From an uncultured Alphaproteobacteria bacterium (GTDB taxonomy: Bacteria; Pseudomonadota; Alphaproteobacteria; HIMB59; GCA-002718135), in assembly GCA_902540265.1 (NCBI GenBank), contig CACBLW010000001.1:130687-173751 (forward strand): 43,065 nucleotides of DNA, given 5' to 3'. How positions within the stretch are numbered: the stretch's first letter is position 1; each line of letters starts with the position of its first letter. This document shows, piece after piece, positions 1 to 24,533 of this stretch. The notes beneath the pieces were generated by a model. The model searched no databases, was not told the DNA's origin, and saw nothing but the letters and a program-made list of their open reading frames with translations. The translations under genes were made by a program, and so were the position numbers.

Positions 1-758
1 TTTTCTCTTTCTTCGGGCCAATTAAGAATTGATAAATTGCCAATTTCATCTTCAACGAGTGCTGTGCAACTTTCAATCCAGTCACCATCATTACAATAGA
101 GAACACCATTTAATTCCTTTATTTCTGGTCTATGTATATGCCCGCACACAACAACATCGGCATTTTCTCTTCTAGCTCTGTCAGATACAGCAAACTCAAA
201 GTTACTAATAAAGTTTGTTGCATGCTTAGTTTTCTTTTTTAAATATTGAGACAGTGACCAATAAGACAAGCCCATCTTTCGTCGAATAAAATTGAATACA
301 TTATTTAACTTTAGTAAATATTCATAAAGTGCTGATCCCACTTTGGCTAACCACCTCGCATTAATTATCACAGCATCAAATTCATCTCCGTGTGTAATCA
401 GTACTTTCCTTCCATCAGCTAATTGATGCGTATCTTCATTTTTTATTGAAATTTCTCCAAAGGAAAAATTTGTAAAATCTTTTAATACTTCATCATGATT
501 TCCTGGGATAAGCACTACCCTAGTTCCATTTTTCGCTTTCTTTAAAACTTTTTGAACCACGTCGTTATGTTCTTGTGGCCAATACATTTTCTTACGCATG
601 CGCCATCCATCAACAATATCGCCTACTAAAAATAAATATTCCGAATCTGTTTCTTCTAAGAATTCTAAAAGCATTTTGCTTTTACAACCACTGGTTCCTA
701 GATGGGTATCCGAAATCCAAATTGTGCGGTAAAATTTTTTATTACTTTCAAATTTCAT
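1..758 (-). CDS. LpxH-like UDP-2,3-diacylglucosamine diphosphatase family metallophosphoesterase (partial)
   Basis: Calcineurin-like metallophosphoesterase, read from the reverse complement and running off the left edge, so its C-terminus is missing (about 252 codons seen). Metal-binding motifs appear in family order: SDTHLG near residue 16, GDIVDGW near 47, GNHDE near 80, THGDEFD near 116 and GHIHRPE near 200. Relatives are the UDP-2,3-diacylglucosamine diphosphatases of lipid A synthesis and related alphaproteobacterial phosphoesterases; the GDxVDGW form is typical of the latter, so the exact substrate is uncertain. The start is ATG at 758-756; an in-frame TAA lies at 764-762, leaving only a TTG at 761 as alternative. 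It is transcribed divergently from the SET-domain gene across a short AT-rich gap. Confidence 0.82.
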   Translation of the reverse strand, partial: MKFESNKKFYRTIWISDTHLGTSGCKSKMLLEFLEETDSEYLFLVGDIVDGWRMRKKMYWPQEHNDVVQKVLKKAKNGTRVVLIPGNHDEVLKDFTNFSFGEISIKNEDTHQLADGRKVLITHGDEFDAVIINARWLAKVGSALYEYLLKLNNVFNFIRRKMGLSYWSLSQYLKKKTKHATNFISNFEFAVSDRARRENADVVVCGHIHRPEIKELNGVLYCNDGDWIESCTALVEDEIGNLSILNWPEERE

Positions 759-795
759 CAATTAAAGATTTTTCTTATACATAAAAGTATCATTT

Positions 796-801
796 TATAA
801 T
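796..801 (+). promoter_or_regulatory. Candidate -10 element for the SET gene-phoR unit
   Basis: A perfect TATAAT lies in the divergent gap between the metallophosphoesterase and the SET gene. The matching -35 region (near 772-777, TTCTTA) is poor. Transcription would begin near 808, which fits translation of the SET protein from ATG 844 better than from ATG 817. In DNA this AT-rich a -10 match alone is weak evidence. Confidence 0.35.
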
Positions 802-843
802 ACAATTTATTATTATATGTGTGTATTGTATAAAAATAACAGT

Positions 844-1344
844 ATGACGCAGAAAATTTGGTTTAAAAAAAAATCACCCCTTCACGGTTCTGGATTATTT
901 GCAAAAACTAATATTAAAAAAGGCCAGAAAGTAATCCAATATATTGGTGATAAAGTTACTAAAAGAGAGGGTGACAAAAGAGCAGATAAACAAATCCGCA
1001 AAGCAAAAAAAGATAAAAATAACGGCATGGTCTATGTTTTTGAACTAAACAAGCGATACGACATAGACGGTGATGTTGATTATAACTTTGCAAAATTTAT
1101 TAATCACTCATGTAATCCGAATTGTGAAGTAGACATCATAGATAATGAGATTTGGATTTCTTCTATTAAACGAATAAAAAAAGGAGACGAACTTTTCTAT
1201 AACTATGGTTATCCTTTTGATACAGATTTTGTGGATCACATTTGTAAGTGTGGTTCTAGAAATTGTGTAGGTTATATTTTAAGTGACAATGATTGGCCAA
1301 AATTAAAAAAATATGAAAAAAAAACTAAGACTAAGTCTAAGTAA
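844..1344 (+). CDS. SET domain protein-lysine methyltransferase
   Basis: Small (166 aa) SET-domain protein expected to transfer a methyl group from S-adenosylmethionine to protein lysine. Visible signatures: the N-terminal GSGLFA turn near residues 15-20, the SAM-binding NHSC motif at 87-90, the active-site tyrosine motif YNYG at 119-122, and a post-SET cysteine cluster CKC...C at 134-141 that with the NHSC cysteine would bind zinc. The C-terminus is lysine-rich. ATG 844 is chosen because the SET fold starts right after it; an upstream in-frame ATG at 817 would add nine unconvincing residues. The last 32 bases overlap the phoR start in another frame, so the two are probably co-transcribed and translationally coupled. 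The target protein is unknown; a link to phosphate control is suggested only by position. Confidence 0.8.
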   Translation: MTQKIWFKKKSPLHGSGLFAKTNIKKGQKVIQYIGDKVTKREGDKRADKQIRKAKKDKNNGMVYVFELNKRYDIDGDVDYNFAKFINHSCNPNCEVDIIDNEIWISSIKRIKKGDELFYNYGYPFDTDFVDHICKCGSRNCVGYILSDNDWPKLKKYEKKTKTKSK

Positions 1345-20373: not shown

Positions 20374-21912
20374 ATGGCTAAAAAAAAATTTAATGTAATT
20401 AGAGAAGAGATGCTTCAAGTTGCATCTAATGTAGCGCAAGAAAAAAATATTGATCAAGATTCAGTTTTTTCTGCAATGGAACAAGCATTAGAAAAAGCTG
20501 CAAGAGTAAAATATGGCCAAGAGATAGATATAAGAATATCAATTGATAGAAGCACAGGAGATATTAAACTTAATTCTTATTTGGAAGTTGTGGAAAATAT
20601 TGAAGAAGAGTTTCAATCTAGGCAAATTCTTTTAGAAGAAGCAAAAAAAACCAATCCCGATATCGGTTTAGGAGAGTTCATTATCAAAGAACTTCCACCT
20701 ATTGAACTAGGAAGAGTTGCAGCACAAAATGCTAAAGGAGTAATAATTCAAAAAGTTAGAGAAGCTGATAAATCTAATCAATATGAAGAATATAAAGATA
20801 AAGTTGGTGAAATAGCAGTCGGTATAGTTAAAAGAACTGAATTTGGAAATTTAATTATAGATTTAGGTAAGAGCGAAGCAATAATTAAAAGAGAAGAACT
20901 TATTCCAAGAGAAACATTTAAAAATGGAGATAGAGTTAGAGCTTATATTTATGAAGTAAAGAATGATGTAAAAGGCTACCAAGTTTTCTTATCAAGAACG
21001 CATCCTCAATTTTTATCAAAACTATTTTTTCAAGAAGTACCAGAAATATACGAAGGGGTTATTACTGTTAAAAGTGTTGCAAGAGATCCTGGTTCAAGAG
21101 CTAAGATTAGTGTTTTTACAGAAGACTCTACTATAGATCCAGTAGGGGCTTGTGTTGGAATGAGAGGTTCAAGAGTACAGGCTGTTGTAAATGAATTGCA
21201 AGGAGAGAAAATTGATATTGTTACATGGTCAGATAATCAAGCTACTTTTTTGGCAAATGCTCTTGCTCCAGCAGAAGTTAGTAAGATTTTCTTGTATGAA
21301 GAAAAAAATAAAGTTGAAGTTGTAATACCTGATGATCAATTAAGTTTAGCAATTGGAAGAAAAGGTCAAAATGTAAAATTAGCTTCTAACTTAACTAGTT
21401 TAGAAATAGATATATTAACTGAAGATGAAGAATCAGAAAGAAGGCAGCAAGAATTTAAAGAAAAAAGTATTTTATTAGCTGAGACACTTGATGTTGAAGA
21501 CGTTATAGCTCAACTACTTGTTACTGATGGTTATACAACCGTTGAGTCTATTGCTACTGAAACATTAGAAAATTTAGAAAAAATAGAAGGTTTTGATACT
21601 ACTTTAGCCCAAGAAATAATTGATAGATCAAAAGGCTATGTAAAGGATAAAGAAGAGTCGGACAAAAAACTCATAGATGAAAATATTACTGATGAAAATT
21701 TAAAAAATTTGAAGGGTATGAATAACAGTATTTTAGCAAAATTAGCAAAATCAAATATTCTCAATGTTAATGATTTTGCTGATTTAGCTACATTCGAACT
21801 TATAGACAAAGAAGAGGGTATCTTAAGAGAATTAGATATTGATGAAGAAATAGCTAACAATATGATAATGGAAGCAAGAAGTTTCTGGTCTGAAGAACAA
21901 AATAAGGATTAA
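20374..21912 (+). CDS. nusA: Transcription termination/antitermination factor NusA
   Basis: RNA polymerase-associated elongation and termination factor (512 aa). The N-terminal polymerase-binding domain (about 1-125) is followed by an S1 domain (about 130-205), KH1 with GMRGSRVQAV near 268, KH2 with AIGRKGQNVKLA near 328, and two C-terminal helix-hairpin-helix acidic repeats to the end (about 365-505). All domains of a proteobacterial NusA are present. The usual upstream partner rimP is missing, and the start follows a terminator-like hairpin by 6 bases without a clear ribosome site. infB follows after 2 bases. Confidence 0.95.
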   Translation: MAKKKFNVIREEMLQVASNVAQEKNIDQDSVFSAMEQALEKAARVKYGQEIDIRISIDRSTGDIKLNSYLEVVENIEEEFQSRQILLEEAKKTNPDIGLGEFIIKELPPIELGRVAAQNAKGVIIQKVREADKSNQYEEYKDKVGEIAVGIVKRTEFGNLIIDLGKSEAIIKREELIPRETFKNGDRVRAYIYEVKNDVKGYQVFLSRTHPQFLSKLFFQEVPEIYEGVITVKSVARDPGSRAKISVFTEDSTIDPVGACVGMRGSRVQAVVNELQGEKIDIVTWSDNQATFLANALAPAEVSKIFLYEEKNKVEVVIPDDQLSLAIGRKGQNVKLASNLTSLEIDILTEDEESERRQQEFKEKSILLAETLDVEDVIAQLLVTDGYTTVESIATETLENLEKIEGFDTTLAQEIIDRSKGYVKDKEESDKKLIDENITDENLKNLKGMNNSILAKLAKSNILNVNDFADLATFELIDKEEGILRELDIDEEIANNMIMEARSFWSEEQNKD

Positions 21913-21914
21913 AA

Positions 21915-22298
21915 TTGGATAAGGAAAAAGGTAATAAAAAAAAGCCATTAAAACTATCTTCATCAGGAAGACTTCAAATAAGAAAAAATCTTGGCCCAGC
22001 AGGTGATAAAGCGAGAACTAGCGGTAGTAAAAAAACAATACAAATTGTTTTTAAAAATAAAAATAATCAACAGAAAAGTTCATCTACAACCCAATCTAAT
22101 TTCAGAGGATCATCTAGCCTAAGAACACCTAGGCCAGGAATTAATTCATCACCACAACCAAACTTCTCCTCACCAAATAAATCTAGAAACTTCGATAATA
22201 AAAATAAAAAAACTACAGATAAAAAAACCCAACAAAAAAATCAACTCTTAGACCAATTGAAGATGATTTTAGTAAATCTGATGCTAAAAAAATACTAG
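21915..22298 (+). CDS. infB: infB 5' portion: translation initiation factor IF2 N-terminal region (frame-shifted from the rest)
   Basis: First part of IF2. Residues 8-24 (KKKPLKLSSSGRLQIRK) resemble the alphaproteobacterial IF2 N-terminal element, followed by a low-complexity Ser/Asn/Lys/Pro linker. The start is TTG 21915 with an AGGA site at 21905-21908, 2 bases after the nusA stop. This frame stops at 22296-22298, but its last 15-20 codons look non-native, while the -1 frame from 22223 onward reads smoothly into IF2. The whole gene, 21915-24154, is 2240 bases, not a multiple of three; one extra A would give a 746-aa IF2. It is therefore not an independent gene. Causes could be a real frameshift rescued by slippage, or a homopolymer error. 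Confidence 0.8.
   Translation: MDKEKGNKKKPLKLSSSGRLQIRKNLGPAGDKARTSGSKKTIQIVFKNKNNQQKSSSTTQSNFRGSSSLRTPRPGINSSPQPNFSSPNKSRNFDNKNKKTTDKKTQQKNQLLDQLKMILVNLMLKKY
22221..22241 (+). other. infB: A-run frameshift site inside infB
   Basis: Two runs of seven A, at 22221-22227 and 22234-22240, lie exactly where the two infB reading frames overlap (both are open from 22223 to 22295). A -1 slip on A AAA AAT (22235-22241) joins the frames as ...QQ-KK-STLRPIEDD..., as does one added A in either run. Such runs are prone to ribosomal or polymerase slippage and also to sequencing errors. Confidence 0.6.
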
Positions 22299-22438
22299 AA
22301 CAGGAAGAACAAGAATTTGATAAATTTCCAAGTTTAGCTAAAATAAAAAGAGCTAGAGAAAAAGAAAGACTAAAATCAGCAACTGACGAAGATGATGCTA
22401 AAATCTCAAGAGAAGTTTCTATTCCTGATTTTATTACT

Positions 22439-24154
22439 GTGCAAGATTTAGCTAACAGAATGGCTGAGAAAACAGCAGATGTAGTTAAAGCCCTAATGAA
22501 AATGGGTGTTATGGCAAATGCTACTCAATCATTGGAATCTGATACAGCTCAACTAGTTGCAGAAGAATTGGGCCACAAAGTAACAGTAGTTAAAGATGAT
22601 GATGTTTTAAATGACATTAAAGATTTTGAAGACCCAGATGGAAGTCTTATTCAAAGAGCTCCTGTAGTAACGATCATGGGTCATGTTGACCATGGTAAAA
22701 CCTCTTTACTTGATGCATTCAGAAAAAGTAATGTAGTGTCTGGTGAGGCAGGAGGAATTACACAGCATATTGGTGCTTATCAAATTAATAATAATAATAA
22801 AAAAATTACATTTATTGATACACCTGGTCATGCAGCTTTCTCAAATATGAGAGCTAGAGGATCTAAAACTACTGATATCGTTATACTTGTTGTGGCAGCA
22901 GATGATGGAATAAAACCTCAGACAATTGAATCAATTGCACACGCTAAAACTGCTGAAGTCCCTATTATTGTTGCTATTAATAAAATTGATTTACCAGGAG
23001 CTGATCCTGATAAAGTTAGAAACGAATTATTAAGTCATGAAGTTATTGTTGAAAAACTAAGTGGTGAAGTTTTAGATATCGAAGTATCTGCAACTGAAGG
23101 AACTAATTTAGATAAACTTGAAGAAGCTATTCATTTACAGGCAGATCTTCTTAATCTTAAAGCAAACCCTCACAGAAAGGCTAGGGGGTCAGTTATTGAG
23201 TCAAAACTAGAAAAAGGAAGAGGTTCAGTTGCTACAGTTTTAGTACAAAAAGGAACTTTGAAAGTTAGTGATATTTTTGTATCAGGTTCAGAGTGGGGTA
23301 AAGTTAAAGCTTTGATTGATGACAAGGGTAAAAATATCAAGCAAGCTGAACCATCTGTACCTGTTGAAGTTCTAGGATTTGATTCTAATCCATTAGCTGG
23401 CGATGATTTTATTGTGGTTGAAAATGAAAGTATTGCAAGAAAAATTGCAGAATTTAGATCAAGCAAACTACAAATTCAAAAAAATACAGTTGCTAAATCT
23501 AATGTTGAAGAGATGTTTGCTCAAATTAATAAAGGTGAAGCAACAAGCCTTCCTGTGGTAATTAAAACTGATGTTCAAGGTTCTGCTGAAGCTATTGAAA
23601 ATTCAATAACCAAACTTTCTACTGATGAAGTTAAAGTAAATGTTATCTATAAAGGAGTAGGTGCAATTACTGAAAGCGATGTTACTTTAGCTAGCTCTGG
23701 AAAAGGTTTTATCGTTGGATTTAATGTTAGAGCACTACCTCACGCAAGAGATATAGCAAAAAGAGATGGAGTAGATATAAAATATTATTCAATTATTTAT
23801 GAGCTTATTGATGATGTAAAAAATCTCTTAACTGGTTTACTAAAACCTGATATTTCTGAAAATATTACTGGAAATGTAGAAATAAGAGAAGTATTTAATA
23901 TTTCCAAAGTTGGAAATATTGCAGGGTGTATGGTTAAGGATGGGCTTATTTCTAGAAAATCACAGATTAGAATTCTAAGAGACAACATAGTTATTCATAA
24001 AGGACAAATTAGTAGTCTTAAAAGATTCAAAGAAGAAGTATCTGAGGTTAAGTCTGGTTTTGAGTGTGGTGTAATGCTTGATAACTATAGTGATATTAAA
24101 GTGGGTGATATTATTGAAACATTTGAAGAAGTTTCTACTAGTAGAAAGTTATAA
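22439..24154 (+). CDS. infB: infB main portion: translation initiation factor IF2 core
   Basis: GTPase that brings initiator tRNA to the ribosome. The open frame really begins at 22223; GTG 22439 is only the first start-like codon in it and falls inside the IF2_N domain (DFITVQDLANRMAEKT), so it is probably not a true start. Downstream are the G domain with G1 GHVDHGKTS, G3 DTPGHAAF and G4 NKID, followed by domain II, domain III and the C-terminal fMet-tRNA-binding domain, ending EEVSTSRKL. Everything from the G domain on is intact. Translation from an internal start, as with the shorter IF2 forms of E. coli, would still give a usable core. The ylxR gene usual between nusA and infB is absent. 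Confidence 0.92.
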   Translation: MQDLANRMAEKTADVVKALMKMGVMANATQSLESDTAQLVAEELGHKVTVVKDDDVLNDIKDFEDPDGSLIQRAPVVTIMGHVDHGKTSLLDAFRKSNVVSGEAGGITQHIGAYQINNNNKKITFIDTPGHAAFSNMRARGSKTTDIVILVVAADDGIKPQTIESIAHAKTAEVPIIVAINKIDLPGADPDKVRNELLSHEVIVEKLSGEVLDIEVSATEGTNLDKLEEAIHLQADLLNLKANPHRKARGSVIESKLEKGRGSVATVLVQKGTLKVSDIFVSGSEWGKVKALIDDKGKNIKQAEPSVPVEVLGFDSNPLAGDDFIVVENESIARKIAEFRSSKLQIQKNTVAKSNVEEMFAQINKGEATSLPVVIKTDVQGSAEAIENSITKLSTDEVKVNVIYKGVGAITESDVTLASSGKGFIVGFNVRALPHARDIAKRDGVDIKYYSIIYELIDDVKNLLTGLLKPDISENITGNVEIREVFNISKVGNIAGCMVKDGLISRKSQIRILRDNIVIHKGQISSLKRFKEEVSEVKSGFECGVMLDNYSDIKVGDIIETFEEVSTSRKL

Positions 24155-24167
24155 TGTTTTTTTTACA

Positions 24168-24533
24168 ATGGATACACAGAGGCAAATTAGATTTGGTGAA
24201 CTAATAAGATCAATATTAAGTGATTGTTTACTAAAAGAAGATTTTTTTGACAAAAATATTAACTCTTCATCCATTACAATATCATTTGTTAGAATGTCCA
24301 AGGATTTAAAGATAGCAAATGTATATTTTATGCCTCTTGGTGGTAAAGACAAATCACAAATTTTAGAAGTTTTAAAAGATAGAAAATATATTTTTCAAAA
24401 ATTTCTATCAAAAGCAAAAATAAATTCAAAATTTACACCAAAGCTCTCTTTTTATTTAGATGATACATTTGACGAGGCAGAAAAAATTGAAAATCTATTA
24501 TTAAACAAAAATGTCCTTAGAGATATTAAGTAA
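24168..24533 (+). CDS. rbfA: Ribosome-binding factor A
   Basis: Small KH-fold protein (121 aa) assisting 30S maturation. The N-terminus RQIRFGELIRSILSDCL is the typical RbfA opening, and the central strand with RMSKDLKIANVYFMPLGG and the later LSFYLDDTFDEAEKIENLL match the family. ATG 24168 is chosen because the conserved region begins immediately after it; the open frame extends upstream into infB from 24078 but that part is the infB shadow. It begins 13 bases after infB and its stop shares one base with the truB ATG (TAATG). Confidence 0.9.
   Translation: MDTQRQIRFGELIRSILSDCLLKEDFFDKNINSSSITISFVRMSKDLKIANVYFMPLGGKDKSQILEVLKDRKYIFQKFLSKAKINSKFTPKLSFYLDDTFDEAEKIENLLLNKNVLRDIK

Follow-up and report, generated by a model that had tools for sequence, protein, structure and literature searches.

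A probable one-base homopolymer error behind the split infB frame of an uncultured alphaproteobacterium

Background

The homopolymer indels of SCGC/GORG-Tropics assemblies are a described parallel to the case reported here. In both, a single assembly carries a one-base change in an A or T run that its relatives do not share, with similar changes close by, and essential genes are broken that relatives keep intact; in the stretch of DNA analysed here, however, the error is inferred from sequence comparison and not demonstrated. A benchmark of the SCGC workflow gave an average of 3.0 indels per 100 kb, according to the part of that paper used here (PMC11247762), and a further benchmark, from which we likewise draw on a part, found the fewest indels in the low-GC Prochlorococcus (PMC5519541).

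A second parallel is found in the endosymbionts Buchnera and Blochmannia, where poly(A) frameshifts are rescued by transcriptional slippage (Tamas 2008 and Wernegreen 2010, as cited in the portion of PMC3017870 used here). The same portion counts, in one Blochmannia genome, eight genes that carry homopolymer frameshifts and are possibly rescued in this way; some of the frameshifts are conserved between species, while four occur in one species only, so that privacy alone does not exclude rescue (PMC3017870). The likeness lies in an AT-rich genome and an A-run indel in an otherwise conserved essential gene. The known cases are endosymbionts, whereas the named relatives of the present organism are marine plankton and the present case is known from DNA alone.

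Programmed -1 frameshifting of the dnaX type makes use of an A-rich slippery heptamer, a stimulatory structure and an upstream Shine-Dalgarno-like element. IF2, the product of infB, has in E. coli isoforms that are made from internal starts, and the N-terminal region of the E. coli protein is dispensable.

The split infB gene

The window (the whole stretch of 43,065 nucleotides that was analysed) carries infB on the forward strand, starting with a TTG at 21915, directly after the nusA stop at 21912, and spanning 2240 bases. The 5' part (21915–22298, + strand), which corresponds to the variable, lysine-rich N-terminal region, is read in frame 1 for 127 aa and ends at a premature stop (22296–22298). 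The core (22223–24154, + strand) is read in the -1 frame for 643 aa to a stop at 24154, and shows Pfam matches to IF2_N, the GTP-binding domain (GTPase), EF-G D2 and IF-2. The IF2_N, GTPase and IF-2 domains, together with the neighbouring nusA, rbfA, truB, rpsO and pnp, identify the product as IF2. Two A7 runs lie at the join (22221–22227 and 22234–22240, both + strand), and a slippery heptamer, A AAA AAT, occupies 22235–22241 in the correct register for a -1 shift. An earlier note on this DNA had described the split, its coordinates, the lengths of the A7 runs and the register of the heptamer, and all of these were confirmed on rereading the window sequence. As a feature of the sequence as given, the break is certain. 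When a second copy of infB was sought in the window's own genome (G000; 1,405,864 bases in 45 contigs, 77.67% complete), just one IF-2 family match was obtained.

infB in related genomes

Within the genus, infB was matched in 84 of 102 genomes, of which 74 have a full-length, continuous gene, eight a partial one and two a broken one. All eight partial genes reach contig ends (G071, G057, G093, G082, G062, G021, G067 and G059). The two broken copies are those of G000 and G020, and they break at different places; G000 alone is broken at the site in the window, where G020 is intact. The break in G020 (locus L112, 1260–3513) is independent and lies at another homopolymer, near residue 510, where an A run is one base longer than at the corresponding place in the window. 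As controls, nusA was matched in 79 of the 102 genomes (75 essentially full length, four cut at contig ends) and pnp in 81 (78 essentially full length, three cut at contig ends), with no break seen in either gene. At the end of contig C12 of G021, a fragment of infB (L184, residues 496–689) lies beside pnp in the opposite orientation, without the genes that stand between infB and pnp in the window; this looks like a chimeric join.

A locus search yielded 80 loci. Of these, 71 are close sisters, many of which belong to the same genomes as the G-numbered handles. The sister loci match essentially end to end in one frame in 68 cases and partially in three, and none is split. Isolate names beginning with AG- or AH-, which we take to denote single-cell genomes from the SCGC centre, are carried by 69 of the 71, many of them labelled MAG; the remaining two are SAG-MED31 and MarineAlpha5_Bin3. 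Most of the named relatives are marine single-cell assemblies, including Pelagibacteraceae and Pelagibacterales records, and they presumably passed through the SCGC workflow. Judging from these relatives, the 45 contigs and the 77.67% completeness, G000 is presumably also of single-cell origin and a product of the same workflow.

The A run at the site of the break was scored in 56 distinct local sequences, a set that excludes the window's own sequence and includes the locus of G020. Eight A residues are present in 47 of them, seven following CC in five, and other lengths in four, and every one of the 56 keeps the frame there. The pattern scan missed 39 loci, some of them distant. An alternative pattern, applied to 21 loci (some from the 39), matched 11 and left 10, among them L039 of G084, the sequence closest to the window in the tract described below, which was then aligned and carries A8. 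The earlier note had named both A7 runs and placed the join at the correct one, the second (22234–22240), which is A8 in most relatives; this one-base difference breaks the infB frame. The first (22221–22227) is the same length in most of the relatives read, where it is in frame, and is not the cause. Among the relatives scored, the difference is private to G000, one base within a homopolymer of a single assembly.

Since the N-terminal part of infB and the core differ in their closest relative, the region was scanned for mosaicism. A tract of ~1 kb (~21,650–22,650), covering the end of nusA and the N-terminal part of infB, is closest to G084, while its flanks are mostly closest to G098. From the sequence comparison, this tract looks like the product of homologous recombination. 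The closest relative of the tract has A8, so nothing suggests that the deletion arrived with the tract. A plasmid search found nothing.

Other homopolymer changes in the genome

A second private change lies 1.9 kb from the infB site, in the spacer between infB and rbfA, where a T8 run (24157–24164, + strand) is T7 in all four comparable relatives. On contig C2 of the same genome (83369–84045, locus L178) there are three homopolymer runs within ~680 bp that are each longer by one base. Two of them, private to G000, break rplQ, and the third breaks a nearby gene located 3' of a crcB-like gene. The rplQ gene was identified as that of ribosomal protein L17 from a family match of the copy in G023, and it is unbroken in the other 83 of the 84 genomes with a match, among which the copy in G064 is cut at a contig end. 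The nearby broken gene reads, by eye, like a pseudouridine synthase, and its neighbour appears crcB-like. In addition to the spacer T8, G000 therefore has further homopolymer indels in conserved genes, two of them in rplQ and one in the gene nearby.

Broken genes were sought in 593,751 bases of G000 against stretches of G098 and G023, in the parts that were comparable (247 genes with G098 as query and 221 with G023, the two sets overlapping). The breaks in G000 judged genuine are those in infB, in rplQ and in the gene 3' of the crcB-like gene on C2. In the reverse scans, which covered 248 genes in G098 and 222 in G023, each genome yielded a single candidate, a 5' extension of the rbfA ORF (window 24078–24533), which was judged from the window sequence and domain matches to be no genuine split. 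Scanning G023 and G098 against each other (233 genes each way) gave none in one direction and one in the other, an ORF of G023 that enters the gene at window 817–1344 from upstream; this was not regarded as a genuine split, and neither was an extension, by 16 residues, of one diverged gene whose likely start lies downstream of the indel. In G023, an open frame upstream of the gene at 817–1344 runs into that gene, and within window 575–1344, upstream of the same gene, G000 and G022 have the same one-base gap when compared with G023, G016 and G019.

Listings of gaps were too noisy in diverged genes, and comparisons of run length were used instead. Private run-length changes, each supported by at least two relatives, number 3 of 1795 in G000, 2 of 1734 in G098 and 1 of 1795 in G023. 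These counts are similar and alone do not set G000 apart; what does set it apart is its broken conserved genes. One private run (C1:71619) falls past a stop codon. From 11 run-length differences in G000, six confident sites were kept. Those at C1 25141, 34522, 91409, 100713 and 168249 were dropped because, with a single relative, the changed side is undecidable. Each of the three C2 sites likewise has a single relative behind it in the run comparison (two of them were additionally read in further rplQ loci); they were retained because they break frames that are open in relatives. Random placement over the 593,751 bases produced clustering as tight as that of the six chosen sites in 9 of 200,000 trials, and in 86 of 200,000 when placements were confined to C1 and C2; for all 11 differences the corresponding figures are 726 and 5308 of 200,000, so that the test, which was set up after the sites had been seen, weakens when no site is dropped.

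Explanations for the split

The single-cell assembly's consensus is probably wrong by one homopolymer base, and this would account for the split in infB. Whole-genome amplification or thin coverage would have led to the loss of one A from a run of eight, and the cell would very probably carry a continuous infB that makes ordinary IF2; sequencing reads would then be expected to show A8. The earlier note had listed such an error as an alternative to its main reading, and it has now become the best-supported explanation, backed by the private one-base difference, the intact relatives and the further private homopolymer changes that lie close together in G000. A rate of 3.0 per 100 kb would predict some 5 to 6 indels in 84 copies of a 2.24-kb gene, while two broken copies were observed; as Prochlorococcus had the fewest indels in the part of PMC5519541 drawn on here, the rate of 3.0 may be an overestimate for the present genomes. 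A base-level assembly error is probably the most economical reading, and a recent private mutation the one to consider otherwise.

Such a mutation would be a real and very recent one-base deletion, in a cell that either obtains IF2 through low-level slippage of RNA polymerase or the ribosome on the A7 run, or is already failing. These genes are rich in homopolymer runs (in G023, infB contains ten A runs of at least six), the Blochmannia genes provide a precedent, and counts of synonymous and non-synonymous differences indicate purifying constraint on both parts of infB, with dN relative to G023 of 0.016 for the N-terminal part and 0.011 for the core. Constraint is, however, equally expected if the frame is intact in the cell and the sequence is wrong. 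No relative scored has the deletion, and one cell would have to rescue rplQ twice, at different sites. The run itself is only A7, compared with the tracts of nine or more counted in the part of PMC3017870 used here. Taken as a whole, a genuine deletion appears unlikely. Slippage rescue as in endosymbionts was the main reading of the earlier note, and it finds no support in the short run or in the marine relatives; the continuous frame of close relatives at the same site is an outcome that the note had itself set against it.

The earlier note also raised the alternative that the core is translated from an internal start, which would give a short IF2. The first in-frame ATG, GTG or TTG downstream is a GTG at 22439, and the longest ORF with a conventional start within the core (22439–24154, + strand; 571 aa) is intact from this codon. 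With the N-terminal region being dispensable in E. coli, a start here or at the next ATG can be envisaged, but the GTG is five residues inside IF2_N (residues 68–119 of the core protein, P0002), and initiation would cut into that domain. Among 102 matching loci, redundant ones included, 88 have GTT as this codon and five have GTG, two of which are G000's own. No sequence resembling a ribosome-binding site was seen by eye in the ~15 bases upstream, and the N-terminal part of infB is still under constraint, all of which makes an internal start very unlikely.

Programmed -1 frameshifting at A AAA AAT, producing two forms of IF2, is the least credible of these explanations and close to negligible: the heptamer is A-rich and in the right register, as in dnaX, but none of the relatives scored needs the shift, the two-frame arrangement is not conserved, inspection by eye showed no Shine-Dalgarno-like stimulator upstream, and two 100-nt stretches around the A run and beyond it showed no downstream stimulatory structure, folding no better than shuffled sequences (z 0.23 and -0.56, in a model that leaves out pseudoknots). 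Programmed frameshifting was accordingly rejected on the folding of these two stretches and of the corresponding stretch of one relative, and a literature search found, in the portions of the sources it returned, nothing on SAR11 frameshifts or on recoding of infB. Old pseudogenisation of the N-terminal part was rejected, as both parts are still constrained.

Implications

When one essential gene appears split in a genome from a single cell, a comparison with relatives should precede any appeal to recoding. It is most unlikely that this is a SAR11-type strain truly frameshifted in infB and, at two sites, in rplQ, and living by frequent slippage of polymerase or ribosome on A and T runs. If this were so, it would be surprising that a free-living bacterium of the ocean tolerates broken infB and rplQ frames, and such a strain would be a free-living counterpart of the slippage case known from endosymbionts.
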